20,572 nucleotides of DNA from a virus: IMG/VR virus record IMGVR_UViG_3300048837_000726, positions 1 through 20,572 of that record; one strand, 5' to 3'. Below the pieces are notes generated by a model that was not told the DNA's origin, did no database searches, and saw nothing but the letters and a program-made list of their open reading frames with translations. The position numbers and the translations under genes are program-made. Below, one piece after another: positions 1,699 through 20,572 of this stretch. Each line of letters begins with the position of its first letter. The first letter of the stretch is position 1.

Positions 1699-1922
1699 TG
1701 AACCTGATCCGCAAGCTGCTGGGCCGCATCGAGCCGGTCGCGTACTGCGCTGACAACGTGCTGCGCCTGAATGCCACGACGCAGACAGTGCCGGCGAACT
1801 GGAAGTTATACGACTCGCCGACACACGCACGCATCAATCAGCAGCAGTGGCGCGAGCGGTCAGAGAAGCGCAGGGCGAACATCGCCAAGCGAAAGATTGA
1901 GGCCGCGAGGCGCGGTCTGTGA
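1695..1922 (+). CDS. Small basic hypothetical protein, 75 aa
   Basis: It starts at ATG 1695 (or the adjacent ATG at 1698) inside the previous stop. The N-terminus carries an LIRKLLGR helix and the C-terminus is a long basic helix (RSEKRRANIAKRKIEAARRGL). A protein at 5118 has the same layout, with WLRRLLGR at the start and RIERAKRGKR at the end, so they may be related or share a binding mode. The basic tail could bind nucleic acid, but this is inference. Confidence 0.6.
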   Translation: MMNLIRKLLGRIEPVAYCADNVLRLNATTQTVPANWKLYDSPTHARINQQQWRERSEKRRANIAKRKIEAARRGL

Positions 1923-1942
1923 CAACAATCAGAGGTGAAATC

Positions 1943-2671
1943 GTGAACGCAATAGTGCACCCCACCGAGCAAGAGCCTGTGTCGCAGTCGTCCGCCATGG
2001 TCCAAGTGATCGAGCGCGCCGCGTCGAATCCGAACATCGACGTGGAGAAGATGGAGCGACTGCTGGCTATGCAGGAACGGATCATGGCGCAGAACGCTAA
2101 GGTCGCGTTCAACGAAGCCATGCGCGCCGCGCAGGCCGAGATGCCGAAGATTCGGCGCAACAAGGAGAACACACAGACCAGTTCCATGTACGCGGATCTC
2201 GAGCAGATCACGGACAAGGCAGTGCCGGTCTACACCAGGCATGGCTTCTCCCTGTCATACGGTACGGCCGACTGCCCTACCCCCGGACATGCACGAATCA
2301 CGTGCGTCTGCGCCCACGTTCAGGGATTCGAGCGCACCTACCAGGCGGACGTGCCGTTGGACTTGACCGGCCTCAAGGGCAACCAGAACAAGACTGCGAC
2401 GCACGGCTTCGGCTCCACCATGAGCTACGGCCGGCGCTATCTGGTCTGCCTCATCTTCAACATCGCACTGACCAATGAGGACCAGGACGGGAACCAGCCC
2501 AGTGACTGCATCACCGAGGAGCAGGTTGCAAACCTGACCGCACTTATGACGGAGGTGAAGGCCAGCAAGGAACTGTTCCTGAAATTCCTCCGCGTCGAAA
2601 GCTTGGACAAGCTGCCGGCCAAGAAGTACTCCGCGGCGGTGAAGGCGCTTGAAGCGAAGAGGAATCAGTAA
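1943..2671 (+). CDS. erf: ERF-family single-strand annealing protein
   Basis: ERF proteins bind single-stranded DNA and anneal complementary strands during phage recombination. The hallmark segment FGSTMSYGRRYLVCLIFNIA is present at about residues 160-180, followed by an acidic DQDGN stretch. The length, about 242 residues, is normal. The C-terminus (TEEQVANL to KLPAKKYSAAVKALEAK) is a separate small helical segment. I prefer GTG 1943, preceded by AGAGGTGA, to GTG 1919, which overlaps the previous stop but has no visible binding site; the two differ by eight residues. The next gene is a YqaJ-type exonuclease, its expected partner for 5'-end resection. Confidence 0.88.
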   Translation: MNAIVHPTEQEPVSQSSAMVQVIERAASNPNIDVEKMERLLAMQERIMAQNAKVAFNEAMRAAQAEMPKIRRNKENTQTSSMYADLEQITDKAVPVYTRHGFSLSYGTADCPTPGHARITCVCAHVQGFERTYQADVPLDLTGLKGNQNKTATHGFGSTMSYGRRYLVCLIFNIALTNEDQDGNQPSDCITEEQVANLTALMTEVKASKELFLKFLRVESLDKLPAKKYSAAVKALEAKRNQ

Positions 2672-6531: not shown

Positions 6532-7122
6532 ATGCGGCCGAAGCTTGAATTCGACGCCGCGGCGCATGTGTACACGCTCAATGGAGAGCGCGTGCCCAGC
6601 GTCACCGAGATCCTCTCGCCGCTGGAAGATCTCAGCAGCATTCCGGCAAATGTGCTGGAGCGCGCGCGAATCCGTGGCCAGCACGTGCACCAGGCGATGG
6701 CCTTGCTGGTGCGCGACGAACTCGACTGGCATTCGCTGGATGCTGACCTTGTGCCCTACATCATCGGGGGGCGGCGATTCCTGGAAGAGTCCGGCATCAC
6801 GGTCATCGCCAGTGAAATGCCTGTCGCATGCCCGAAGCTGCGGGTCGCCGGCACGCTCGATCTTTTCGGTCACTGGCGCGACAGCGATGCGCTCCTCGAT
6901 TTCAAGGCCACGGCCTCGATGCCGGCCTCGGTCGGCCCGCAGACCGCGGGCTACGAAACGCTGTATCGCTCGCAGTTCGGCGGCCGCCAGCGCAAGCGAT
7001 TCTGCGTGCAGTTGAAGCCCAATGACTACCGCATCTACCCACTCACCGACAGCGCCGACTATTCGATCTTCACGTCGGCGCTGAACATCTTCCACTGGAG
7101 AAACAAGCATGCTGCAGCATGA
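6532..7122 (+). CDS. PD-(D/E)XK nuclease, second exonuclease candidate
   Basis: This 196-residue protein carries the RecB-like PD-(D/E)XK nuclease signature: RGQHVHQAM (His51, His53), Glu95 in VIASEMPV, GTLDL with Asp110, LLDFKAT with Asp123 and Lys125, and QTAGYE (Gln137, Tyr141). It is unlike the YqaJ enzyme at 2671 in sequence and probably forms a pair with the RecT-like protein just upstream, whose TAG is one base before this ATG. The N-terminal SVTEILSPL segment is also typical for this group. Confidence 0.85.
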   Translation: MRPKLEFDAAAHVYTLNGERVPSVTEILSPLEDLSSIPANVLERARIRGQHVHQAMALLVRDELDWHSLDADLVPYIIGGRRFLEESGITVIASEMPVACPKLRVAGTLDLFGHWRDSDALLDFKATASMPASVGPQTAGYETLYRSQFGGRQRKRFCVQLKPNDYRIYPLTDSADYSIFTSALNIFHWRNKHAAA

Positions 7123-7801
7123 CGTCGCATCGCATCCCGAGGTGAAGGAGATCTCCGCCCAGGCGGACCAGCTCGTCACCACCTTCAGCAGCTTCAGAAT
7201 CGTGACGGCGGAGGACTATTCGCTCTCCGGCTCGCAACTGAAGCAGGTGAAGGACGCGCAGAAGAAGCTCGACACCCTGCGCAAGTCCATCACTCGCCCG
7301 ATCGACGCCGCAAAGGCTGCCGTGATGGATCTGTTCCGTGCGCCCGAGTCGAAGCTCAACCAGGCCGAGACCAGCATCAAGCGCGCGATGGTCGCGTTTC
7401 AGCAGGAGCAGCAGCGATTGCGCGCCGAAGAACAGCGCAAGGCCGACGAGGCAGCGCGCAAGGAGCGTGAGAAGTTGGAGGCGCAGGCGGCAAAGGCCAC
7501 TGCGTCCGGCAAGGTCGAGAAGGCCGAGCAGCTTGAGCAGCGTGCGGCGACCGTCGTCGCCCCGGTCATTCAACGCGAGGCGCCGAAGGTCGCCGGCATC
7601 AACACCCGCGAAGTGTGGAAGGCTGAATGCACCGACTTGAAGGCACTGGTCAAGGCAATTGCCGAAGGCCGCGCGCCGCTGTCGCTCGTGATAGCGAACG
7701 ACAAGGTGATCGGTGCGCAGGCTCGCAGCCTCAAGGGCGACTTCGTCTGCGATGGCATTCGCGTGTGGTCGGAGCAGTCGATCGCGGCCGGTGCGGCATG
7801 A
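7109..7801 (+). CDS. Coiled-coil phage protein, 230 aa
   Basis: ATG 7109 has a GGAG site at 7097-7100 and overlaps the nuclease gene by 14 bases. The first 90 residues are helical (QLKQVKDAQKKLDTLRKSI), residues about 90-140 form a strongly charged coiled coil (FQQEQQRLRAEEQRKADEAA and onward), and the last 60 residues are a folded domain (VWKAECTDLKALVKAIAEG, VIANDKVIGAQARSL, CDGIRVWSEQS). I know similar proteins next to RecT-like and nuclease genes in other proteobacterial phages, but not a proven function. Confidence 0.7.
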   Translation: MLQHDVASHPEVKEISAQADQLVTTFSSFRIVTAEDYSLSGSQLKQVKDAQKKLDTLRKSITRPIDAAKAAVMDLFRAPESKLNQAETSIKRAMVAFQQEQQRLRAEEQRKADEAARKEREKLEAQAAKATASGKVEKAEQLEQRAATVVAPVIQREAPKVAGINTREVWKAECTDLKALVKAIAEGRAPLSLVIANDKVIGAQARSLKGDFVCDGIRVWSEQSIAAGAA

Positions 7802-8124
7802 GCACCGAGAAGTTCGACGCATGGGGCATCGTCGAGTTGATGGGCCATCAGCGTGTTGCCGGCCGCATCAGCGAACGCGCGATCGGCGGCGGCAATCTGC
7901 TGCAGGTCGACATTCCGCAGGCTGACGATTCCTTCCGCACCGTCTTCTATGGCAGCAGTGCGATCTACGCGCTGCACGTGACCGATGAAGCCGCCGCGCG
8001 CGCGGTGGCCAAGGTCGGCGGCAGCAAGCCCACGTATGCGTTGGAACTGGAGCGTGTGCCGCGACTGTCCGCGCCGAACGAAACCACACATACCGACCAA
8101 GATGATGAGGAGTTCCCACTGTGA
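7798..8124 (+). CDS. Phage hypothetical protein with acidic tail, 108 aa
   Basis: ATG 7798 overlaps the previous stop (ATGA). The segments AWGIVELMGHQRVAGRISE, GGGNLLQVDIP and FYGSSAIYALHVTDEAAARAVA belong to a phage family I recognise by appearance, without a known function; its beta-rich core could be a small barrel. The end is acidic and hydrophobic (DQDDEEFPL), somewhat like an SSB tip though less exact than the protein at 3288. It lies in the second recombination module. Confidence 0.65.
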   Translation: MSTEKFDAWGIVELMGHQRVAGRISERAIGGGNLLQVDIPQADDSFRTVFYGSSAIYALHVTDEAAARAVAKVGGSKPTYALELERVPRLSAPNETTHTDQDDEEFPL

Positions 8125-8807
8125 GCGCCGCACCACTGCTCTGCATCCCACTGCGCGACCTGCAACTGGTGATGCCGTACAAAGCTGACGTGGAAACTAC
8201 GCGTCCGTCGATGGCGGGCATCCGCATCGAACCGGCCAACCCCGGCGCGCTGCTCATCGCCACCAACGGTCACATCATAGGCGTGATGCACAGTCGCGAT
8301 GCCGTCGTCGATCGGGCACGCACGCTGGCTATCGATCCCGTGTTTGAGTCCTGGCTCAATCACGAAGATATCTATGGCCCGAATGACAGCAACGTCCCCA
8401 TCCATGGCGACGTGGTAGTCGCCTCCGAAAATCACCGCATCGTCGTCAACAACGCTGGCGCTGAACTATTCGTTTCGCCCGGCAAACCGTTCATCGAGTC
8501 TGCCTATCCGCTCTGGCGCAATGTCGTGCCAGCCATCGACCAGCTGGAAGCCGGGATCGCGAGCGCTATCGCGGCTCGTTATCTGACGCTGCGTTCACCC
8601 ATCCTACAAAGCGCGAACATGCAAGGCATGCAGTGGTGGCACCGCCGGGACACGCCGGAAAAGCGCGTTCATGTCGCTCGCTACATCACAGAGCCCGACC
8701 TGGTTGTCGTCGTGATGCCGGTTCGTGTGGATGATCCCATACCGGATTGGCCGGAATGGATGGCGCGAACGAACGCCACTGAGTCACCCGCGAACCCCCC
8801 TTCTTGA
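8121..8807 (+). CDS. Protein with DNA sliding-clamp-like motifs, 228 aa
   Basis: It starts with GTG in a GTGA overlap. Two segments resemble bacterial beta clamp (DnaN): ALLIATNGHIIGVMHS, like the ATDGHRLAV strand, and ESAYPLWRNVVP followed by LEAGIASAIAARYL, like the YPDYRRVLP segment and following helix of E. coli DnaN. The protein is about 60% of DnaN length, so it would have fewer clamp domains per chain. The C-terminal part (EPDLVVVVMPVRVDD) also looks strand-rich. A clamp-like processivity or decoy role is inference. Otherwise the function is unknown. Confidence 0.5.
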   Translation: MSAAPLLCIPLRDLQLVMPYKADVETTRPSMAGIRIEPANPGALLIATNGHIIGVMHSRDAVVDRARTLAIDPVFESWLNHEDIYGPNDSNVPIHGDVVVASENHRIVVNNAGAELFVSPGKPFIESAYPLWRNVVPAIDQLEAGIASAIAARYLTLRSPILQSANMQGMQWWHRRDTPEKRVHVARYITEPDLVVVVMPVRVDDPIPDWPEWMARTNATESPANPPS

Positions 8808-8818
8808 GGTTCACTGCC

Positions 8819-9253
8819 ATGGATCACACCAATCGACACACCAAGATCGCAGCCGACGGCTCTGTGCTGCCGGTTCACGCCACCGTGTGGGACGCCGTGC
8901 TGGACAACCACACTGGATTCATGTGGCCCGTGAAGGCAATCCGAATCCCGAACGGCCACGAGAAGACCATTCGTGCTGCCTTGGCAGAAACCCAGGGTTG
9001 TGCCGGCTTCCACGACTGGGCCGCGCCCTCGGTGGAGCAGTTGTTCACGCTGCCCGATCGCACGCGCGTCAACCCGGCGATCGACACGAACTACTTCCCG
9101 AACTGCCCTCCTGACTGGTTCTGGTCGATTACGCCCGACAGCGTGTCGCCCTTGGATCTCGCGTGGAACGTCAACTTCTACTACGGCATTTCGAACCGGA
9201 ACAACCGCAACAACAACGGTTGGTTCCGCGCCGTGCGCGTCGGTCAGCTCTAG
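8819..9253 (+). CDS. DGR target protein, DUF1566 (Lcl C-terminal, C-type-lectin-like) domain
   Basis: ATG 8819 is preceded by GAGGT at 8806-8810; an upstream in-frame TTG at 8804 has no such support. The 144 residues make one DUF1566-like domain: DNHTGFMWP near the start, CAGFHDWAAPSVEQLFTL (61-78), NPAIDTNYFP, WFWSITP, and a C-terminal strand set ending GWFRAVRVG. The last 35 residues are encoded by a variable repeat (9140-9244) matched by a template repeat downstream. Residues changed against the template are Val109, Tyr121, Tyr122 and Ile124. DGR targets usually use such lectin-like folds to bind varied ligands. The ligand here is unknown, and there is no signal peptide. Confidence 0.82.
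   Translation: MDHTNRHTKIAADGSVLPVHATVWDAVLDNHTGFMWPVKAIRIPNGHEKTIRAALAETQGCAGFHDWAAPSVEQLFTLPDRTRVNPAIDTNYFPNCPPDWFWSITPDSVSPLDLAWNVNFYYGISNRNNRNNNGWFRAVRVGQL
9140..9244 (+). repeat. DGR variable repeat (VR)
   Basis: These 105 bases match 9753-9857 with four differences, at 9144, 9179, 9182 and 9189. In every case the template has A and this copy has T. The repeat ends nine bases before the target gene's stop codon. Its 3' end is GC-rich (ccgcgccgtgcgcgtcggt), as expected for the site where mutagenic homing starts. Beyond it the two copies diverge (cagctc here, gagtgt in the template). Confidence 0.9.
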
Positions 9254-9271
9254 GCCCATTGGTCTTCTGAC

Positions 9272-9700
9272 ATGCACGAAGCACCTACCATCGTGAAAGC
9301 AAGCGAGCGCGTGCTTGTGGAGATCGAGGGAGCCGTCCGCGGATTTTCTCGGTATCACAAGTACGCTGTCGGCGCTGAATTACGCTCGGAAGCACGGCGC
9401 GTTGCGCGGCTCGCCAATCGTGCGTGGCGGGATCATCACCGGCGGGCGGAATGGCTCAGTCGGCTATCGTTTGCGATCGATGATTTGAAACTCTCTCTGC
9501 AGATCGCAAAGCGTGTCGAGGCCTTCACTGGCTTCAAGCAGTTCCAGGCCCTGGCGCGCATCGTTTACAACCTCGGCCAGCAGTGTGGAGGCTGGCAGAG
9601 ACGTCATTCCTGTAAGGGCCAGAACTCGCAGACCAATACGTCCGCGGGGCGTGCCCAGACACTGAGTGCCCGCGACGCCTCGCAAGAGGCTATTTCATGA
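9272..9700 (+). CDS. avd: DGR accessory variability protein (Avd-like)
   Basis: Avd is a small four-helix protein that binds the reverse transcriptase and the template RNA and is needed for mutagenic homing. This 142-residue protein has the usual Avd pattern: a YHKYAVGAELR start to helix 2, a basic RRVARLANRAW helix, then RLSFAIDDLKLSLQIAKR, FTGFKQFQALARIVYNLGQQ and the final GGWQ. After GGWQ there is an unusual tail of about 40 residues rich in Ser, Gln and Ala. The gene lies between the target gene and the template repeat, in the order avd has in the Bordetella phage BPP-1 DGR. Confidence 0.85.
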   Translation: MHEAPTIVKASERVLVEIEGAVRGFSRYHKYAVGAELRSEARRVARLANRAWRDHHRRAEWLSRLSFAIDDLKLSLQIAKRVEAFTGFKQFQALARIVYNLGQQCGGWQRRHSCKGQNSQTNTSAGRAQTLSARDASQEAIS

Positions 9701-9855
9701 CGAAGCGGTCCTACCCCTCTGGATGGTCCGCCGGGTCCAAAGTTCGCGGGTTAGCGAGTCGCCCTTGGATCTCGCGTGGAACGTCAACTTCAACAACGGC
9801 AATTCGAACCGGAACAACCGCAACAACAACGGTTGGTTCCGCGCCGTGCGCGTCG
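9701..9855 (+). ncRNA. DGR template RNA region between avd and RT
   Basis: This gap carries no convincing gene: readings across it are shifted-frame versions of the repeat. In known DGRs the template RNA covers the end of avd, the TR and the start of the RT gene, and is bound by RT and Avd. I infer the same here; the exact ends cannot be seen in the sequence. Confidence 0.5.
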
Positions 9856-9857
9856 GT
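9753..9857 (+). repeat. DGR template repeat (TR)
   Basis: This 105-base copy of the variable repeat lies between avd and the reverse transcriptase gene. It contains 25 adenines, mostly in AAC or AAT (Asn) codons in the target frame, spelling a N-rich stretch (NFNNGNSNRNNRNNN). AA-rich codons at positions meant to vary are typical for DGR templates, because the enzyme misreads template adenines. It would be transcribed as part of the template RNA and is not itself a gene. Confidence 0.9.
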
Positions 9858-10236
9858 GAGTGTCACCAAGGATGTCGTTACTCTGCAGGCTCTCTACGCT
9901 GCCTGGCGCGAGGCCCGCCGCAAGAAGAAGCCCAGCAACGACCAGGTGGGCTTCGAAACCTTCTGGATCGATAACCTGCAGCAGCTGCTGGAACGCGTGA
10001 TCGCGGGCACATGGCAGCCGGATCCACCGACGTGTTTCGTGGCCAAGCAGCCGAAAGCCAGAGAGATTCACGCGCCGACGTTCTCTGATCGCGTTATCCA
10101 TCACTGGCTGGTGCCGCAGCTCGAATGGATCTACGAGCCGACGTTTATTTTCGACTCCTTCTCGAATCGCCGCGGCAAAGGCACGCATGCTGCGATCGAC
10201 CGGTTGCAGGCTTTCGTGCGCCAGGTGCACAGTGGC
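9856..10236 (+). pseudogene. DGR reverse transcriptase, truncated before the catalytic motifs
   Basis: From GTG 9856, at the last bases of the TR, the frame encodes the N-terminal part of a DGR-type reverse transcriptase: LQALYAAWREARRKKKPSND, NLQQLLERVIAGTW, PKAREIHAPTFSDRVIHHWL, EPTFIFDSFSNRRGKGTHAA and IDRLQAFVRQV. This covers the finger region up to motif 2. The expected continuation with the first catalytic Asp and the YxDD box is absent: at about 10230-10240 the sequence changes to unrelated DNA, although the frame stays open to 10632. With no catalytic Asp the product cannot be an active polymerase. A deletion is the simplest explanation. Confidence 0.85.
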
Positions 10237-10255
10237 CAAAGTAAAGGAGAAAACC

Positions 10256-10632
10256 ATGCTGACCGACTGCCCGAAGTGCTGGATGTCCCTCTGCGAATGC
10301 GGATGGGAGTACAGGAATTGGCCGCTCATAGAGCGGAAGACGCTCGCGAGGCGCAAGGCACCGCCGTCATCAAGGCGCAGAGGGAGAAGATTGCGGAGTT
10401 GGAGCAGCAGATCGCCGGCGCGAACGCGACCATTGCGCATTTCATGGGGCCAGATGGCGAGCGGCACGCCGAGCGGTTCACGCGGCAGGTGGAGCGCATT
10501 GCCGAGTTGGAGCAAGCACTCGACCCGCGCCGGTGGACGCAGGAACAACATGCGGCTTGGCATCGAAACATCCCGGATGTGCAGGCAGCATTCGCGGCAC
10601 TCAGATCACTAATGGTGAGCGTGCCGAAATGA
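10256..10632 (+). pseudogene. Cys-rich / coiled-coil phage gene, apparently frameshifted
   Basis: ATG 10256 has a strong binding site (AAAGGAGAAAACC) and opens MLTDCPKCWMSLCECGWEYRNW, a Cys-rich segment that looks like a real zinc-site start. After about 35 residues this frame turns into Arg/Ser-rich non-protein-like sequence. The -1 frame, shared with the truncated reverse transcriptase, gives a convincing coiled coil (VIKAQREKIAELEQQIAG, then ERFTRQVERIAELEQAL) ending at 10632. One net -1 shift near 10350-10370 would join both into one protein of about 125 residues. I see no slippery heptamer. Decay or a sequencing error are both possible. Confidence 0.55.
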
Positions 10633-11017: not shown

Positions 11018-11278
11018 ATGGTTGTCCTTCCCGTCAATTGGGTCACCGGTCCACGGTTCTACGAACTTACCGGCTACACTGAGGATGCGTGCGATAAGAA
11101 GCGCTCGCAGGGCGTCTGGCTGGAGGGTGGTGTCTGGAAGAAGGCACCGGACGGACGCATCCTGTACAGCATCGAGGGGTATCACGCATGGGTCGAGGGA
11201 AAGGCGTTCGCGCCACAAGCAGATCGAGCATCGGCATCACGTTCCAGTATCGCGGCGCGCGCTGCCGGGAGAAGCTAA
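11018..11278 (+). CDS. xis: Putative excisionase (Xis-like)
   Basis: The 86-residue protein has the pattern of small phage excisionases of the winged-helix type: NWVTGPRFYELTGYTEDACD is a helix-turn-helix-like start, KKRSQGVWLEGGVWKKAPDG a wing, and ILYSIEGYHAWVEG the last helix. Xis proteins bend attachment-site DNA and direct the integrase toward excision. It overlaps the integrase gene by 91 bases, a common xis-int arrangement. The last 25 residues (APQADRASASRS and on) lie in the overlap and are probably unstructured. Confidence 0.72.
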   Translation: MVVLPVNWVTGPRFYELTGYTEDACDKKRSQGVWLEGGVWKKAPDGRILYSIEGYHAWVEGKAFAPQADRASASRSSIAARAAGRS

Positions 11279-12363
11279 AGCTTCGTCCGACCGATGCGAA
11301 TCGGAAATGGGCGGAACGACTGAAAGCCACGATCGAGCACGAGATCGCGACCGGTACATTCGACTACGCGAAGCACTTCCCGAACTCTCCGCGCGCGCGC
11401 ACGTTCGCACGTACCCCTGGCGCAGCAATCACTGTGGGAGAGCAGCTAGGGGTATGGCTTGACGGCAAGAGTGGTGAGGTTGAACCAGAAACCTGGGATG
11501 AGTACGAGAAGGACGTCCGTAAGCACCTGAAGCCGCAGTTCGGTGAGACGCGCCTATCGGACCTCACGCGGCAGGACGTCAAGACCTGGGCGGCCGGCAC
11601 GAAACTCAGCCGCAAGCGACTGAACAACATCCTCATCCCGCTGCGATCAATGCTGAACGAGGCCGTCGATCAGGACCCGCCGCTCATCCCTCGCAATCCA
11701 TTGCATGGCTTCGAGTTGAAGCGCCTGCGAACTCTGCAAACCAAGGACACCGTAGATCCATTCTCTCAAGAGGAAATCGCCGCCATCCGCGAACACAGCG
11801 ATCCGCAGTTCGCTGACTTCGTGGAGTTCTGGTGCTGGACCGGACCGCGCCTTGGCGAAATCATTGCGCTGCTGTGGGCGGATATCGACTTCCTCCGCGG
11901 CTCCATGCGCGTCGCGCGAGCCGTCCGCGAAGGACGCCTCAAGGCACCGAAAACCGAAGCGGGTGAACGGGACGTGAAATTGCTCGCCCCTGCCCTCGCA
12001 GCGCTGGAGCGGCAAAAGGCGCGAACCTATCTGGCTGGCCAGCACATCTGGCACAACCCCAGAACAGGAGAACCGTGGACGGGGGACGGTCCGATCCGGA
12101 AGACCGCGTGGGTGTACTCACTGAAGAAAGCCGGCGTGCGATATCGTGGACCGAAACAGCTTCGGCACACGTTCGCGAGCTGGATGCTTTCTGCCGGCGA
12201 GAATCCGCTGTGGGTCGCAAAGCAGATGGGCCATGAGGACTGGTCGATGATCGTGAAGGTCTACGGACGATGGATTCCGGAGGTGGACCCGCTCGCCGGG
12301 AGCCGTGCCGTCACGCTGATTTATGGCACGACTGCGGCACGATCAGAAGAAAAGGCCAAGTAG
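11188..12363 (+). CDS. int: Tyrosine-family site-specific integrase
   Basis: A 391-residue lambda-type integrase. Residues 10-65 form an arm-site-binding domain of the DUF3596 type (FQYRGARCREKLKL, then FDYAKHFPNS). Residues about 80-165 form the core-binding domain (VGEQLGVWLDG, WDEYEKDVRKHLKP). The catalytic domain follows with Arg221 (TGPRLGEI), Lys255 (APKTEAGERDV), Arg326 (KQLRHTFAS), His349 (KQMGHED) and nucleophile Tyr359 (KVYGRW). The usual first His of the HxxR box is Lys323, a change also seen in related enzymes. The gene ends 15 bases before the putative attachment core, whose neighbouring repeats could be its arm sites. Confidence 0.95.
   Translation: MGRGKGVRATSRSSIGITFQYRGARCREKLKLRPTDANRKWAERLKATIEHEIATGTFDYAKHFPNSPRARTFARTPGAAITVGEQLGVWLDGKSGEVEPETWDEYEKDVRKHLKPQFGETRLSDLTRQDVKTWAAGTKLSRKRLNNILIPLRSMLNEAVDQDPPLIPRNPLHGFELKRLRTLQTKDTVDPFSQEEIAAIREHSDPQFADFVEFWCWTGPRLGEIIALLWADIDFLRGSMRVARAVREGRLKAPKTEAGERDVKLLAPALAALERQKARTYLAGQHIWHNPRTGEPWTGDGPIRKTAWVYSLKKAGVRYRGPKQLRHTFASWMLSAGENPLWVAKQMGHEDWSMIVKVYGRWIPEVDPLAGSRAVTLIYGTTAARSEEKAK
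12322..12331 (+). promoter_or_regulatory. Candidate integrase arm-type site, left side
   Basis: TATGGCACGA occurs here, inside the end of int, and again at 12474-12483 on the other side of the attachment core. A related GGCACGAT lies at 12336-12343. Direct repeats on both sides of the core are how lambda-type integrase arm sites are arranged. Function is inferred from position only. Confidence 0.35.
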
Positions 12364-13059: not shown

Positions 13060-13249
13060 TTGAATCCTCCACGGCCTTGTTAGGCACGAAGTACTGAACG
13101 ATGAACGTCAGCGCAGCCGTGAGGCCAATAGCGGCATCGGCTGAAAGTTTGACCGTCGTGAATGTCTCGATTGCCCACGCAAGTACCGAGACAACGCCGC
13201 CGACTGCAACGCCGGCCGCGACCTTCCTATCAACTGTGTTTGCGCTCAC
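13043..13249 (-). CDS. Putative holin, 68 aa
   Basis: Two hydrophobic segments (VAAGVAVGGVVSVLAWAI at about residues 10-27 and AAIGLTAALTFIVQYFV at about 39-55) and a charged, Asn-containing tail (PNKAVEDSNDQTG) give a typical small two-helix holin. It directly follows the endolysin gene. The start is set by AGGAGA at 13257-13262 on the minus strand: it lies seven bases before GTG 13249 but only one before GTG 13255. Holins make the membrane holes that release endolysin. Another small membrane protein is the alternative. Confidence 0.65.
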   Translation of the reverse strand: MSANTVDRKVAAGVAVGGVVSVLAWAIETFTTVKLSADAAIGLTAALTFIVQYFVPNKAVEDSNDQTG

Positions 13250-13698
13250 TGCCACTCTCCTGTCAGAAACTGCTTGCGGAGGGTTTCACCCCTTCCCTTG
13301 ACCTGTTCGTACCAAAGTGAATTTTTCAGTTCTTCAGCCGCATGCATCCAGCGACCCTCACTGGCGAACTGAATGAACTTCTTGAAGCCCTTGAATCGTG
13401 TCAGGCCGAGATTGAAGATGAGCTCGACGATGACCGCCTGGCGAATTGGGTCCAGTCGCCCAAACCATTGGAATGTCTGTGCAGCGCCGATGCAGTCGCT
13501 GATGTCGTTATCTAGCAGGTACTCGATCTCGTCCTCGGACAGGCCCTTGTCCTCTAGGTTTCTGCCCACCCCGACCGTGAGCTTGCCGCGCACCTGACTA
13601 CCGACAGCCACGGGCTTGCCGGTCGCATCGTCGTAGACGAATGGCCGGAATCCTTCGTGCTTCGCCAGCTGCTGTCGAAGCCTTGCTCGGTCAATCAT
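13246..13698 (-). CDS. Endolysin, T4-lysozyme-type muramidase (GH24-like)
   Basis: A 150-residue cytoplasmic lysozyme that cuts the sugar backbone of peptidoglycan. The N-terminal KHEGFRPFVYDD contains the catalytic Glu15 and Asp24, spaced nine residues apart as in T4 lysozyme (Glu11, Asp20). LTVGVGRNLEDKGLSEDEI is the next motif, with Arg where many relatives have His. The C-terminal FNLGLTRFKGFKKFI and the final ETLRKQFLTGEW also fit. ATG 13698 overlaps the previous stop (ATGA); the open frame further upstream is not protein-like. No signal peptide, so a holin is needed for release. Confidence 0.92.
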   Translation of the reverse strand: MIDRARLRQQLAKHEGFRPFVYDDATGKPVAVGSQVRGKLTVGVGRNLEDKGLSEDEIEYLLDNDISDCIGAAQTFQWFGRLDPIRQAVIVELIFNLGLTRFKGFKKFIQFASEGRWMHAAEELKNSLWYEQVKGRGETLRKQFLTGEWQ

Positions 13699-13895
13699 TT
13701 GAGCGGGAGCGAGTCTTTGCCTATCAGCCACAACGCGAGACCGATGACGACAATTCCGGCGAGCCATGCCGCCTTGCGCAGCACGCTCTTTCCGACATCG
13801 GCGTACACAGGCTCAAGCGCACGCTTCGCAGCGCGCTCGGCAATGTGGTCAATCTCAGCGTCCGTGAGTCCGCCGAAGGGCTGGCGTTCGTTCAT
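13695..13895 (-). CDS. Small membrane protein of the lysis cassette, 66 aa
   Basis: The start is ATG 13895, ten bases after the tailspike stop; the longer open frame begins with Arg/Ser-rich sequence and is rejected. Residues 1-38 are soluble and helical (GGLTDAEIDHIAERAAKRAL), followed by one transmembrane helix (KAAWLAGIVVIGLALWLIG) and a short LPLK end. This resembles small phage membrane proteins near holins. It could be a second holin or antiholin, but this is inference. Confidence 0.6.
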   Translation of the reverse strand: MNERQPFGGLTDAEIDHIAERAAKRALEPVYADVGKSVLRKAAWLAGIVVIGLALWLIGKDSLPLK

Positions 13896-13905
13896 AGTTG
13901 TGGCG

Positions 13906-15942
13906 TCATGCCGCGATCGACTCGATCTCGATGCGGGAATTCCAACTAACCGTAGTGGAGCCAACGCCCTGCACCTGGGCAACGGCGAAGGTGCTCGATA
14001 CCGCCATCGCGGCGCCGCCCCACGCGGCGTTGGACTCGATGTCAGTACCGATGGTGCTCGTCGCGCCCTGCTGCGCCGCGTTGCCGCCGGCGTCGCGATA
14101 GAACAGCCCTTGGCGTGAGTACACCGCGCGATCTGACCCGTCCGCCTTCGATCCGATCGAGCGCTGCGTTACGACATAGGCGCATTCGTCAGGCATCGCC
14201 ATCGCGAGCGCGTTGCCAACACTGCCATCCGTGGTTTGTCGATACACGCTGACGGCAACGCGGCCCCGCTTGAAACCGGCATTCATGAGGAACTCGCCCA
14301 CCGCGTTACCGGCGAAGTTGTTGCCCTCGACGTTCACGTTCGACAGAACCGCTCCAGTCTCGAAGATGAGGCCATAGCTCTGCGTCTTGACTGCCTTGTC
14401 GTCGGATGCGTTGACGCCAGTGATCGTGAGGTGCGCGCACGTACCCAGGATGTGCACGCCGCCGGCATAGCTCACCGCGGCAACGTTGTTCCCGGAATAG
14501 CGACCGCCAGTGATCGACACATGGTTGCAATTGTTGATGCGGACGCCGTCGAAGCGGCAATTGCGACCGATGTTGCCGTCGATCACCACGTTGTCCTCGT
14601 TCTGCACGCTGATCGCGGAGCCGCCGCCGGTTGCATTCCCGCAGTCGTAGATCTGATTGCCGACGTAGATCAGTCGACCGACGTTGGTGCCGCTCGAGTT
14701 GGTGTGATGAATGCCATCACCCAGCGTCGTCGACGTCACCCCGCAGTTGCGGACTGTGTTGAAGGCGAAGATCGCATTGCGCGGAGGATTGTTGAGTCCG
14801 TCCGTCGCGGAATAGATGCCCGGGCCTTCACAGTTGTAGAAATCGCAGCCGATGATCTTGGCGTTGAATCCGCCGTTCAGCTGCAGGCCTGGCGCCGTGC
14901 CGTTGCCGCCGATGTCCCACGCCTTACAGCCGTCGAAGGAGACCTCGACGGATTCGGAGGTCCAGTTGTAGCCGGCCTTGGTCGTGTTGCGCACCTTGCA
15001 GTTAGTGACGGTGATGCGATTGCCTGTCCCACCAGGCGTACCCGCGGAGAAGGACATTCCGTTGACGCCAGACGCACCAGCGACCCGCGTGCCATTCTCA
15101 ACCCAGATATTGTCGAGAACACCGCCGACGACGTTGTTGCAGGCGAGCAGGCCGGCGTCGAGCTGACCGCCGCTGTTGCCATCGATGCGGAAGTCGCGCA
15201 GTACGATGCCGTTGAGCGCCCCGAAGGTCCCGTGCTGAATCAGCAGGATGATGTACGTGCCTGCGCTCTCACCCTTGATGCAGCTCGCATAGCCGCTGCC
15301 GATGATGCCCGTGCCCGAGGTGTTCAGCTCAGCGCGCTGGCTGAAGTAGTACGTCTTGGGCCCCAACTCGACGAGGCCGCCGACAATGTTGGCGACGTTT
15401 CGCGCCTTCACGAAGGCCGGATAGTCATCGGTCACGCCATCGCCAACCGCACCGTATCGATCGATCGAGATGCGCGGATAGGCGAGGTATTGATAGTGCG
15501 TCGGAACGACGCCGGCCGAATCTTCAGCGTCGGTCTGCGGATAGAGCAGTTGCGCGATGATCGACTGCGTGAGCCCGCCGATGATCGCCTCGAATTCGAT
15601 GTTCGAAGTTCCGATGACGATCGGATCGGCAGTCGTGACGCGGTAGTAGATGCCATCGTTGGCCGTATTGTTTGAGACAACCAGCGTCCCATTCACCACG
15701 TCCAGGGCGCCGTCAAAGTCTTTCGCCCTCGACCACTGCCCGGTGCTGACGACGTAGATGCCGTTTTCCGATGGAACTGACTGACCGTATGCCAGCACCC
15801 GGTCACCATCGGCACACGCAATGCCGGCAATCGTCTGCTCCCCTGAAAGGGTCAGGTTCGTGCTTGCGGCAACCTTGACCGGTGCCTTAACGGCAACCGA
15901 GGTGGTCAGCCCCTGCAGCCTGTTCGTGGCGGTGGACGGCAT
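13906..15942 (-). CDS. Tailspike / tail fibre protein with right-handed beta-helix
   Basis: The 678-residue protein begins with a virion-attachment-like domain known from phage tail fibres (VKVAASTNLTLSG, then RVLAYGQSVPSENGIYVV). From about residue 155, ISIDRYGAVGDGVTDDYPAF starts a pectate-lyase-like beta-helix that runs to about 560 with many short strand repeats (GNRITVTNCKV, VVIDGNIGRNC, VSITGGRYSGN). The last 120 residues probably trimerise the spike. Such proteins bind and often cut surface sugars of the host. GGAG lies eight bases before the ATG. I cannot identify the catalytic residues. The lysis genes follow downstream. Confidence 0.88.
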   Translation of the reverse strand: MPSTATNRLQGLTTSVAVKAPVKVAASTNLTLSGEQTIAGIACADGDRVLAYGQSVPSENGIYVVSTGQWSRAKDFDGALDVVNGTLVVSNNTANDGIYYRVTTADPIVIGTSNIEFEAIIGGLTQSIIAQLLYPQTDAEDSAGVVPTHYQYLAYPRISIDRYGAVGDGVTDDYPAFVKARNVANIVGGLVELGPKTYYFSQRAELNTSGTGIIGSGYASCIKGESAGTYIILLIQHGTFGALNGIVLRDFRIDGNSGGQLDAGLLACNNVVGGVLDNIWVENGTRVAGASGVNGMSFSAGTPGGTGNRITVTNCKVRNTTKAGYNWTSESVEVSFDGCKAWDIGGNGTAPGLQLNGGFNAKIIGCDFYNCEGPGIYSATDGLNNPPRNAIFAFNTVRNCGVTSTTLGDGIHHTNSSGTNVGRLIYVGNQIYDCGNATGGGSAISVQNEDNVVIDGNIGRNCRFDGVRINNCNHVSITGGRYSGNNVAAVSYAGGVHILGTCAHLTITGVNASDDKAVKTQSYGLIFETGAVLSNVNVEGNNFAGNAVGEFLMNAGFKRGRVAVSVYRQTTDGSVGNALAMAMPDECAYVVTQRSIGSKADGSDRAVYSRQGLFYRDAGGNAAQQGATSTIGTDIESNAAWGGAAMAVSSTFAVAQVQGVGSTTVSWNSRIEIESIAA

Positions 15943-16424: not shown

Positions 16425-16637
16425 ATGGGCCTGAAAGACGCATACAAACTGCTATCAATCACAGCGCTGACCGGTTGGCTGCCGATCGGCATCGGATTAC
16501 TCGTGGCAAAATTCGCGCTGGAACACGGCGCCAGAGATTGGCCAGATCTGTTGTTCCACACGGTATTCATTGGGCTGTGGCTCGCGCTGACAGGCGTTGG
16601 CGTATGGGTAGCCGCCAAGCTAGACATGTTCAGTTGA
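16425..16637 (+). CDS. Two-helix inner-membrane protein, moron-like, 70 aa
   Basis: It starts five bases after the stop of the exported-protein gene. Two membrane helices are clear: LTGWLPIGIGLLVAKFAL (about residues 14-31) and VFIGLWLALTGVGVWVAAKL (about 47-66), joined by EHGARDWPDLLFHT. The protein would sit in the inner membrane. No family recognised. With its partner it forms a two-gene unit ending in converging transcription with the 840-residue gene (8 bases of overlap). Confidence 0.65.
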   Translation: MGLKDAYKLLSITALTGWLPIGIGLLVAKFALEHGARDWPDLLFHTVFIGLWLALTGVGVWVAAKLDMFS

Positions 16638-19152
16638 CCGTTTCGGACGGTCGAAGCCACCATTGCTGACCACGCTCCTGCTCCGCCCTTCGCTCCATGC
16701 GGCGCAAGTAACCCGGATTCATTGATTCCTGCAGTTCGTACAGGAAAAAGTAGTCCGCAGCCATCCTTGTATAAAACAGGTTGTTGCCAGGTACGTTGTT
16801 GATGCCGAAGCGAAGCGCCTCAGCAGCAACATCATCCCCGGCCACCGCGCGATCGTATAGGCGCTTCACTTCCGCCGCCTTGCCTACCGCCGGACCGCCC
16901 AATGTTTCCAGGAAGCCGCCGCCCATCCGACTGGCCTCGCCGAACAGGAAGTCGCCGTAGATTCCGAGGCCGCCACCCTGCACCATCGCTGCCGCCCAAG
17001 TTTTCGGGTTGTTGACCGGCCGCGGTGTTTTGCCTTTGACCATATCCTTGAGCGACATCGCCATGTAGCCGAACCCGAGACTACCGAGCAGCATCAGGCC
17101 AAGTCCGCGTGTGGTCGAAAGCCCAGCATTTGGCCCATAGCCATGAAGCTCTCGCAGGAATGCTCGCTGCATCACGGCGATACCGAATGACTTGAACTGC
17201 CAGAACAGGCGCATCACTTCGCCGATGACTGTGCCGGCCTGCGTGCCACGACGCATAAAAGCTAGCGTGCGTGCGTCCGGCTGGATCACCGCTGAATCCA
17301 AGTCATCCGCGTAGAACTGCTGCAACTTGTCTGCGGTGGACTCGCGGGTTTCTTCCAGGATCTTGCGGACATTGCGATCGGCAGTTTCCGGCTTACCTGA
17401 TTTAACGCCTTGTTCCTTCGCAGCCCGGATGCGATCGGTGGCCAGCGGCGAGAATGCATCCAGGTCCATTTCGCGCACCGCCTGCGGCGTCATGAACTTT
17501 CTACCATCAGCCTCTACAACGCCTTGAGAGATTACTGCCCATTCTTGCTCGCCGATGCGGAAGCGTTGCAGCGCCATGCGATTTCGATCAGAAAGCTCTC
17601 CCCATGACTTGCCTGCAATTGATCCCCAGTAGTGGGCCATCGATTCCACCGTGGCACGACGCATTGAATCAGTCCAGCCGGCCAGCAGGTTCATCTTGAA
17701 GAACAGATTGACACCGCGGTGAAGCACGCCGGGGATCTGGTCATCAGGAGAGAATCGCGTGGCCATATTGGATAGCGCGATCTCGTTGAAGTAACCGGAT
17801 GCCGCAAGCACCGCCTTTTTCTCGCCGCTATCCATTCCGGCGGTCAGTCGCTTGATCGGCGCGATGAGTCCGTCAACCAGTCCGCCAAGGTATGACTGAC
17901 CCTGATACCGCAGCAGGCTGGCGCGGATCGGCACATCTGTCGTGGCCGAAAGCACTGCTCCACCCAGCGTCGTCATCGTGAACCACTGCCGCGCACCTTG
18001 ACCAATTGCTGCCATGCGCGAGCTAACGGCCCGGCGCGTGACCCCGCTCACCTCGAGGTATGCATTCTTGATGCGGTCCTGGTATCGGTCGAACTTCTGC
18101 AGTGCCGGCACATCGTCACGCATGCCAGAGCGTACGGCGTTGATGATCTCGCGCAGGTTGCTCTCCGGGTTGGTTCCAAGCACCTGCATCAGCCCTGTTG
18201 CATCTGCGGACTGACGCATGCCTTCAATGAAGGTTTCCCGAAGGTTGCCGGTGCCGTACTTCTGGTTGTACTCAAACGCTGCATCCGCCGTCGTGAAGTG
18301 AATCACGCGCTCCTGCGAGAGCTTCTTGGCGAGATTTCCCGGTCCCTTGAATGCGGCGTCCTTCGCGCCAGTCGTGGTTTCTCGAATGCCAGTGGTGATG
18401 TTCTTGAAAGTCTCCGTGAGCCATCCGTCCAGGTCTTTCGGTGTGCCTTCCGGAAACATACGCTCCAGATCCAGCACGGGAAGCACGTCAGCTTTCCATG
18501 CTGTTTCGCCGGCCTTGTAGATGCGATCTGCGGAATGCGTCTGACGCACCCCGTAGTCATCGACCTTGCCGATCCACGCGCCAGCACGGTTGGCGTCCAG
18601 TCGCGACACGTTCTGCCACTTGTCCAGAATCTTTGCGATCTCGACCGCCTGCGACGGGTACTGACGAAGCGCGGCGTCATCTCCGATGCTGCGCATCGCG
18701 CCGAATACCTCGCGGTCCAGATCGCCCTTGCGCAGCACATCGAACAGTCCCGCAGCTTCCAGTTCGCCCGTCACGCCGCCCAGGTATCGACGCAGTAAGG
18801 CGGACTGCGCAGCGTTGACCGAAGATCGCGAACCAAAGCGCGCCTTGGCCGATCCGTACAGCACAGCGAGCACGCCCTCGCCCATATCCTCTGCCCATGT
18901 CGTGCGCAGGTAGTCGATGGTTTCAAGGCGAATGCGGCGATTGATCGCGGCACTGCGCTTCTCGATTGCAGCGGCAGCCTGAAGCGTTTCCGCTACCTCC
19001 ATGCCGGCCTGAGCAGATGCGGTTGCCGGATCAGCGCCCTGCTGGATCAGTCGCGCCTGACGCGCGCGCATCTGCTCCAGTATGTCGTCCAGCTCCTTGT
19101 CCGTGATGTCAGCGACATTCTTGCGGACGAGATCAATGCATGCTTCTGTCAT
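16630..19152 (-). CDS. Large internal virion / ejection-type protein, 840 aa
   Basis: This long protein resembles internal virion or polyvalent proteins of podovirus-like phages, which are injected with the DNA. The N-terminal 100 residues are helical (ELDDILEQMRARQARLIQQG). The middle holds a hydrophobic stretch (WFTMTTLGGAVLSATTDVP, about 390-410) and many helices. The C-terminal third has a second hydrophobic stretch (GLGLMLLGSLGFGYMAMSL) and a Gly-rich segment (VQGGGLGIYGDFLFGEASRM), perhaps an LPD38-like domain. Hydrophobic stretches in an otherwise soluble protein fit membrane passage. It is encoded between the zeta-like gene and the tailspike. Confidence 0.6.
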   Translation of the reverse strand: MTEACIDLVRKNVADITDKELDDILEQMRARQARLIQQGADPATASAQAGMEVAETLQAAAAIEKRSAAINRRIRLETIDYLRTTWAEDMGEGVLAVLYGSAKARFGSRSSVNAAQSALLRRYLGGVTGELEAAGLFDVLRKGDLDREVFGAMRSIGDDAALRQYPSQAVEIAKILDKWQNVSRLDANRAGAWIGKVDDYGVRQTHSADRIYKAGETAWKADVLPVLDLERMFPEGTPKDLDGWLTETFKNITTGIRETTTGAKDAAFKGPGNLAKKLSQERVIHFTTADAAFEYNQKYGTGNLRETFIEGMRQSADATGLMQVLGTNPESNLREIINAVRSGMRDDVPALQKFDRYQDRIKNAYLEVSGVTRRAVSSRMAAIGQGARQWFTMTTLGGAVLSATTDVPIRASLLRYQGQSYLGGLVDGLIAPIKRLTAGMDSGEKKAVLAASGYFNEIALSNMATRFSPDDQIPGVLHRGVNLFFKMNLLAGWTDSMRRATVESMAHYWGSIAGKSWGELSDRNRMALQRFRIGEQEWAVISQGVVEADGRKFMTPQAVREMDLDAFSPLATDRIRAAKEQGVKSGKPETADRNVRKILEETRESTADKLQQFYADDLDSAVIQPDARTLAFMRRGTQAGTVIGEVMRLFWQFKSFGIAVMQRAFLRELHGYGPNAGLSTTRGLGLMLLGSLGFGYMAMSLKDMVKGKTPRPVNNPKTWAAAMVQGGGLGIYGDFLFGEASRMGGGFLETLGGPAVGKAAEVKRLYDRAVAGDDVAAEALRFGINNVPGNNLFYTRMAADYFFLYELQESMNPGYLRRMERRAEQERGQQWWLRPSETVN
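16636..16652. terminator. Short hairpin at the convergent gene ends
   Basis: GACCGT (16636-16641) and ACGGTC (16647-16652) pair perfectly around a five-base loop (ttcgg). The site is just where the moron pair and the leftward ejection-protein gene end. There is no T-run on either side, so termination is uncertain. Confidence 0.35.
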
Positions 19153-19229: not shown

Positions 19230-19511
19230 ATGAGCTACGCAAGTGACATCCCGCTTTCCCTCGCCATCGCCGCACACAGCGGCACCAGTTTCGTGCCGGA
19301 TCGCCGTGGCGCTGCCGTTGTCGCCGGTTACGGCGCCGAACTTCAGGAGGCCATCGATCGCGCCGGCTACAGTCAGGCCGGTGCAGCTCGTGAGATGGGC
19401 ATCGATCGCCGAACACTAATGCGCTACCTGTCCGGAGAGTACCCAGTCCCGCGGCTTGTTGAACTTGCCGTGAAGGCATTACCCGCCCCTCACCAGGCAA
19501 ACCGTCGCTAG
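19230..19511 (+). CDS. Small HTH-domain protein, 93 aa
   Basis: ATG 19230 follows a TGAGGAAA binding site. The C-terminal half is a helix-turn-helix of the Cro/XRE style: AELQEAIDRAGYSQAGAARE, then MGIDRRTLMRYLSGEYPVPR and a closing helix LVELAVKAL. The N-terminal 35 residues (IPLSLAIAAHSGTSFVPDRR) are not part of this fold; similar segments occur in some large phage virion proteins. It is alone on the + strand, and its end overlaps the end of the zeta-like gene by 33 bases. It could regulate the late block or be a moron; its targets are unknown. Confidence 0.65.
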   Translation: MSYASDIPLSLAIAAHSGTSFVPDRRGAAVVAGYGAELQEAIDRAGYSQAGAAREMGIDRRTLMRYLSGEYPVPRLVELAVKALPAPHQANRR

Positions 19512-20572
19512 GTTCGCGACCTTCGCCCATCGATCCGCATTTGCAGCGGCTTCGTTGATCTCGCGAATAGAGGCATCCTCAGCCTCTACGCCGAGCCGAT
19601 CCGCTAGCGCCTCGAGATCGGACTGCGCAAGGCTCATCTCTTCCTGAGCGGCCTTCAGGTTGTCCGCAGTCGGTGTTCCGGTGTCGATCTCGCGCGCAAG
19701 TGTTTTCTGCGCGGCATCGAGCGCACCACGAACGTCTGCGGCATCGGCTTGGGGGTTGATCGGGGTGTCAAGCGCCCCATTGACGACCGCCTGCTTGAGT
19801 GCGGTCTCTCGCTGAATCGGGGTGGCAGCGATTAGCTGCTCTTCTGGTCCGAGTCCTCTTCCATCACCGCCTTGTTCAGGGCCTCGACCCACGCTCTGCC
19901 GAGCCGATCGGCCTCCGCGTTGCGGAGCGCCGTTTCCTTTTGTGCCTCGGTAGATGGCGTCTGTAATGGCGCCTGACTTGTAGGCTGCTTCAAGGGCTGC
20001 ATCTAACTCTCCTACCACCGCATTGTAATCTAACCGGGGTAGCGCTTCCACACTGGACAAACGGGCATTCCCCTTGCCGTGACTGTTATCAATGACTTGG
20101 ATGCGAACCCGAGAATCATCTGCGTACTTTTGACTTAATTCACGTACCGTATCCAATGATCCGACGTGCGTCTTGGCGTGTTCTTCCAGCGGAACCGTGC
20201 GCCCCATTCGCTTCGCGCGAGGTAACGCGCCGTTCACCAGCGCATCCACTGGGTGGCGATACGTGTAAACGATGTCGACATTGCGACCTGATGCCAGTGC
20301 TTGCTCAATCTTTTTCACCGAGCTTTGCAGCCCGTTCAGGTTGGTGTCGTAGATAATCCGTGCATCACGGATATCAGCATTGGACTTCGCGAGCATGTCG
20401 AGGCCCGTGGTCTTTCCGGCACCTGTTCCGCCGCCAGAGAAGATCACGCGCTCGTTCGGTTGTGCTGGTTCAGCAAGGCGCCGCTCGTAAATCTGCTCCA
20501 CCAGGTACGAAGCGGGCTCATGAACTGCAGCAGATCGAGTTCTGTCAGCGCGGTAGTCCGCGGACAGTTCGC
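19479..20572 (-). CDS. Zeta-toxin-like P-loop protein, C-terminal part of a larger gene
   Basis: The frame is open to the right edge, so the gene starts outside the window; GTG 20499-20501 is not needed as a start. A Walker A motif is clear (SGGGTGAGKTTGLDML), followed by IIYDTNLNGLQSSVKKI and VDIVYTYRHPVDALVNGAL, as in zeta-toxin/phosphotransferase-like kinases. Next come a Gly/Arg-rich linker (APQRGGRSARQS) and a helical C-terminal region (GALDAAQKTLAREI, EMSLAQSDLEALADRLGV). Such domains occur inside large polyvalent phage proteins delivered into the host. No antitoxin gene is seen beside it. The substrate is unknown. Confidence 0.65.
   Translation of the reverse strand, partial: ELSADYRADRTRSAAVHEPASYLVEQIYERRLAEPAQPNERVIFSGGGTGAGKTTGLDMLAKSNADIRDARIIYDTNLNGLQSSVKKIEQALASGRNVDIVYTYRHPVDALVNGALPRAKRMGRTVPLEEHAKTHVGSLDTVRELSQKYADDSRVRIQVIDNSHGKGNARLSSVEALPRLDYNAVVGELDAALEAAYKSGAITDAIYRGTKGNGAPQRGGRSARQSVGRGPEQGGDGRGLGPEEQLIAATPIQRETALKQAVVNGALDTPINPQADAADVRGALDAAQKTLAREIDTGTPTADNLKAAQEEMSLAQSDLEALADRLGVEAEDASIREINEAAANADRWAKVANLATVCLVRGG

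Follow-up and report, generated by a model that had tools for sequence, protein, structure and literature searches.

In Bordetella phage BPP-1, the reverse transcriptase (RT) of the diversity-generating retroelement (DGR) is complete, and its target has been proven to belong to the tail. Viral DGR targets are mostly predicted tail proteins (PMC8144416), and in the ACA phages the target is the antireceptor; a prophage related to ACA1 carries a frameshifted RT, which is a published parallel for RT loss in a phage DGR (PMC10612066). Two short ORFs of Burkholderia cenocepacia phage Magia were named as DGR targets by the authors who described it (PMC7883833), and the DGR of Stenotrophomonas sp. SKA14 has two template repeats (TRs), six variable repeats (VRs) and five DUF1566 targets (PMC6642488). 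For prokaryotes at large, it has been hypothesized that DGR targets play an immune-type role (PMC10053308). Here we analysed a window of 20,572 bases, which is a whole IMG/VR record (IMGVR_UViG_3300048837_000726), and compared its DGR with those of related phages. The cassette is probably a defective member of a widespread clade of DGRs found in the lysogeny region of temperate phages.

The DGR cassette and its genomic neighborhood

As seen in Table 1, the target gene, avd, TR and RT frame follow each other closely, in this order, on the + strand. The BPP-1-like order proposed in the first-pass annotation is thus borne out, and so are its descriptions of the target as a free-standing DUF1566 protein of 144 residues and of its surroundings as a recombination and integration region, with the tailspike and ejection genes on the other strand. 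The DGR shares its strand with the early genes and the integrase, opposite to lysozyme, tailspike and the phrog_684 virion protein. This is the layout of a lysogeny-region (Magia-like) DGR, on the integrase side and opposite the late genes, and not that of a BPP-1-type tail-tropism DGR, given that the target is on the + strand and the tailspike and virion genes are on the - strand.

Table 1. Features of the DGR cassette and of neighboring genes in the window
Feature	Position	Strand	Evidence
Erf-like annealing protein, early gene	1919-2671	+	
Exonuclease-family match, early gene	7109-7801	+	
RusA-like match, early gene	8121-8807	+	
DGR target gene, 144 aa Lcl_C/DUF1566, C-type-lectin fold	8819-9253	+	PF07603, E 5.8e-20
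VR, ends in IMH-type GTCAG at 3' end of target gene	9140-9247	+	repeat search, TR mismatches
avd (accessory variability determinant)	9272-9700	+	phrog_3206 ('Avd protein of DGR'), E 2.6e-15
TR, ends in IMH*-type GTGAG, at RT frame start	9753-9860	+	repeat search
DGR RT, N-terminal 127-residue fragment, YVDD palm missing	9856-10236	+	phrog_1423, E 1.2e-34
Post-break stretch, AAAGGAG + ATG, coiled-coil-like tail in RT frame	10237-10632	+	sequence
Excisionase-like gene	11018-11278	+	DUF1233 putative excisionase, E 0.013 (weak, below cut-off)
Tyrosine integrase, downstream of DGR	11188-12363	+	PF00589, E 8.5e-13; PF12167, E 1.4e-23
Lysozyme	13246-13767	-	
Beta-helix tailspike	13906-15942	-	
Ejection-type virion protein, 840 aa, phrog_684	16630-19152	-	

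The anticipated Avd was recovered by its PHROG profile, and the Pfam bAvd model scored 27.3 bits, below the 40-bit cut-off; the protein shares 52% identity with the Avd of an intact cassette in the related contig L001. The excisionase-like gene has a 53% identical match that lies directly before the integrase of another relative (L065). Upstream of the window DGR no repressor was identified; the record is cut at its left end. That cut end (1-135) consists of five tandem 27-nt units encoding a 9-residue repeat of the NSAQLAASG type. On the late strand, the gene at 19479-20501, which adjoins that of the 840-aa virion protein, encodes a Zeta_toxin domain (PF06414, E 3.8e-10). PADLOC has no model for the target or Avd and gave generic matches for the RT, and an Rfam search of the window returned no match. 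Searches of viral_contigs by the target, the RusA-like flanking gene (8121), the ejection protein and the RT junction recovered no near relative of the window phage, and the best relatives of its integrase in bacterial genomes are only 31-47% identical.

Truncation of the RT gene

The reverse transcriptase recognized in the first-pass annotation is present as its N-terminal part, the catalytic part being absent, and position 10236, which had been taken as the end of the gene, is the point where RT similarity stops. The match to phrog_1423 covers positions 105-226 of 1040, and an RT clade profile of 388 positions that we built from 77 relatives is matched over positions 1-124 (E 1.2e-66). The window retains 127 residues of an enzyme that has about 390 when intact, and these are 68-69% identical to the intact RT of L001. 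No catalytic YxDD palm was found and RVT_1 had no match in the window, so a complete RT was rejected on the N-terminal-only profile match and the lack of RVT_1. A frameshifted or split RT within the record was also rejected, since a six-frame search of the whole 20.6-kb record at maximum sensitivity (--max) for the missing part, including YVDD, gave nothing above noise and no C-terminal piece in any frame. The window does have the adenine signature, the IMH/IMH* pair and the Avd of a functional DGR; because the catalytic RT part is missing, we file the cassette as a defective DGR.

Past the break come a ribosome-binding-site-like AAAGGAG and, at 10256, an ATG; read in the RT frame, the sequence encodes a coiled-coil-like tail that ends with a stop at 10632. 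The stretch 10237-10632 shows no RT similarity and no family match. We note that within 10256-10632 the natural-looking start (MLTDCPKCWMSLCECGWEYRNW) and the coiled-coil-like continuation lie in different frames, which indicates that either the gene or its assembly carries a frameshift.

Among 80 close relatives from viral contigs, 77 have a full-length RT with Y/FVDD. Two of the other three RTs are cut by contig ends, and in the third, that of L011, an in-frame deletion has removed the catalytic region. This second RT without a catalytic region (L011:7001-7942) is accompanied by two VRs that have diverged as usual, at about 10-12 of 25 adenines. The relatives were picked from a viral collection by RT similarity and are hence phage-borne by selection (the location statistics given below were not selected for), and their records are not phylogenetically independent. 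A search of genome_contigs with two specific RT patterns found no confirmed relative, and the cultured phages of INPHARED include no member of the close clade (best RT identity about 41%, no target match). In the RT tree, the window groups with L007, L005, L029, L027, L040 and L006 with weak tip support (0.22). Its terminal branch is longer than the median (0.31 versus 0.056). Since near-identical records abound and determine that median, we draw no conclusion about decay from the branch length.

Given that no near relative of the window phage was found, the state before the loss is reconstructed from phages whose RTs are 58-73% identical. By analogy with BPP-1, in these intact relatives the TR RNA would be copied by the RT together with Avd, with misreading of adenines, and the cDNA would replace the 3'-terminal VR in each of one to four small genes for Lcl_C proteins with a C-type-lectin fold. 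In the window the catalytic two thirds of the RT are gone, most simply by deletion; mutagenic homing would then be impossible unless an RT acted in trans, and the target would be frozen or drifting. The first-pass annotation had this copy varying its target, whereas with the catalytic part gone it varies nothing by itself now.

Template and variable repeats

The VR and TR are 95% identical over 108 nt. In the 105-nt core there are four mismatches, all of which fall on TR adenines and are A to T changes (hypergeometric P 0.0026). The fifth mismatch (9245 C in the VR, 9858 G in the TR) is the GTCAG/GTGAG difference between the IMH and IMH* ends, which recurs in 148 of 153 TR/VR pairs (window included). 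A chance repeat is ruled out by the length and identity of the match, the adenine-only core mismatches and the conserved IMH pair. The adenine bias expected of related repeats was confirmed, as 92% of mismatches in the whole family set (2199/2384) are at template adenines. The substitutions at adenines are uneven in the 153 pairs (L001, L004-L083), with 1216 A to G, 666 A to T and 287 A to C.

The window VR is the least changed of all 153 pairs, with 4 of 25 adenines altered (the median is 61%), and its last 12 adenines ahead of the IMH are all unchanged. Loss of the RT alone is insufficient to account for such a TR-like VR, because a VR frozen by RT loss is expected to be as mutated as the others. 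A last homing event with few mutations, recombination with the TR, or an assembler that preferred the TR would explain it.

The last of these belongs to a broader alternative in which the DGR is intact and active, and the assembler fused the beginning of the RT to sequence from farther downstream and put TR-like bases into the VR. The RT truncation is known from this single assembled record, its junction at 10,236 was found in no other viral contig that we searched, and the run of unchanged adenines in the least diverged VR is what an assembler preferring the TR in a hypervariable site could produce. We nevertheless regard an artefact as improbable: the break is followed by a plausible ribosome-binding site and start codon and then by excisionase-like and integrase-like genes on the same strand, the excisionase-integrase order also occurs downstream of the intact DGR of L065, the GTCAG/GTGAG difference is retained at the 3' end of the VR, and L011 provides an independent RT loss. 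It seems to us very unlikely that another DGR, located in the host or in a co-resident prophage, supplies an RT that still diversifies the cassette in trans, even though avd and the target gene have kept conserved open frames next to an intact IMH, considering that the VR is nearly TR-like and not diversified, that 77 of the 80 relatives keep their own RT in cis, and that no host genome is linked to the record. A DGR that has lost its own RT is the reading we retain.

Target proteins

The Lcl_C match (PF07603) spans residues 26-140 of the window target, with the VR in the C-terminal part of the protein, as in an Lcl_C-type DGR target. The AlphaFold2 model (mean pLDDT 92.6) has a C-type lectin fold, and the closest solved structure is the C-terminal domain of Legionella Lcl (8q4e; Z 12.4, rmsd 4.0 over 116 residues, 15% identity); the comparison informs on the fold and not on the ligand, and ranks past the first few are mostly generic C-type lectins. 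About 20-25 residues lie outside the lectin domain, and there is no N-terminal attachment domain. The first-pass annotation had looked to phages with the same target: a search by the window target gave no near relative of the phage in viral_contigs and no match among the INPHARED phages, Magia included.

The median length of 134 targets from the window and its relatives is 153 aa. The relatives usually have two targets in tandem before avd, sometimes with extra ones several kb upstream. There are two types of targets, one (that of the window) with about 20-25 residues before the lectin domain and another with a longer N-terminal extension. It is often the second tandem target that has the N-terminal, probably helical extension (e.g. 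LSNELRGVIEARLRSASPRQVLAIASALCA), which the single target of the window lacks; examples are L001:1352-1897, L006:5858-6397 and L040:5850-6380, among others, and the helical look is seen in some members.

In a simple hydropathy scan with guessed start codons, only 1 of the 134 targets proved hydrophobic enough near its start for a signal peptide. The description of the target as apparently cytoplasmic is consistent with this, but virion proteins, Mtd included, have no signal peptides either, so their absence is no proof.

Genomic location of the DGRs in related phages

We surveyed 50 whole records of close relatives. A terminase was recognized in 32 of them (phrog_2 in 8, GpA_ATPase in 24), and in all 32 the DGR occupies the other strand, 10.5 kb or more from it; these strand counts leave out the other 18 records. 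Integrase-bearing records number 34, with the tyrosine integrase 2-12.2 kb downstream of the RT in 31 (22 of them on the same strand) and near the far end of the record in the remaining three. In 31 records an HTH_3 repressor-like gene precedes the DGR by 2-11 kb on the same strand, and in 15 of these it has an oppositely oriented partner. The cultured phages Magia, Cruim01 and phPA-G, whose RTs are only about 40% identical to those of the clade, have similarly placed DGRs (between repressor and integrase in Magia, upstream of the integrase in Cruim01, and downstream of a CI-like repressor in phPA-G). From the relatives' records and these three phages, these temperate phages generally share this little-studied position, which is hence not special to the window. 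A DGR outside the tail genes, as first annotated, is therefore real but not unusual for the clade, and Magia is alike in this.

The target could still be a virion tail-tip adhesin made from the early operon, i.e. the product of an ordinary tropism-switching DGR in an unusual place, and we consider this quite possible, if short of an even chance. Mtd of BPP-1 is a separate protein without a signal peptide, too. The predominance of predicted tail proteins among viral DGR targets (PMC8144416) and the antireceptor of the ACA phages (PMC10612066) point the same way. The opposite and distant terminase in 32 of 32 records argues against a tail adhesin, as do the few residues that the window target has outside its lectin domain, the presence of several targets per genome, and the beta-helix tailspike that the window phage encodes on its late strand.

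We slightly favor, at little better than even, a soluble ligand-binding protein inside the lysogen or the early-infected cell over a tail tip, because the target has a conserved co-location with the repressor and integrase, lies opposite the late genes, and has neither an N-terminal attachment domain nor a signal peptide. The layout leads us to infer use of the product during lysogeny or the early phase, and not as a part of the tail. A role beyond tail-tip switching, which the first-pass annotation had raised, gains from a placement conserved in so many relatives, and a putative intracellular role fits the layout better. The wider proposition, that in a widespread class of DGRs of temperate phages the proteins being diversified are soluble, intracellular and of lectin fold, made from the repressor-integrase region, and not tail adhesins, is a tentative one that we think rather unlikely as it stands. 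If true, such proteins might, for instance, serve in recognition, by which the lysogen counters competing phages or the decision for lysogeny is adjusted, and the window would be a member whose RT was lost, perhaps with one binding variant fixed as a result.

The clade spans at least two terminase types, and its targets are kept in the lysogeny region opposite the late genes. The window itself mainly shows the decay of a cassette, with the RT lost and Avd and target still open. Whether phage DGRs ever diversify non-virion proteins is directly testable in cultured phages such as Magia.

Comparison with known systems

The window DGR resembles that of BPP-1 (mtd-avd-TR-brt) in its gene order, in the adenine-specific differences between TR and VR and in having a target of C-type-lectin fold with a C-terminal VR, and differs from it in its truncated RT and in its target, a small Lcl_C protein encoded apart from the tail genes. 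With the C-terminal domain of Legionella pneumophila Lcl (8q4e) the target shares the fold and PF07603 at 15% identity, but 8q4e forms part of a bacterial adhesin, whereas the phage target stands on its own. The multiple DUF1566 targets per DGR in the relatives of the window resemble the complete, multi-target DGR of SKA14. As for Magia (MT701587; PMC7883833), it is likewise a temperate phage with short lectin-fold targets (genes 47 and 57), its targets, Avd and RT are found between the immunity repressor and the integrase, near RecT and a nuclease, and its late genes are on the other strand. Unlike that of the window, the Magia RT, about 35% identical to the window fragment, is complete.
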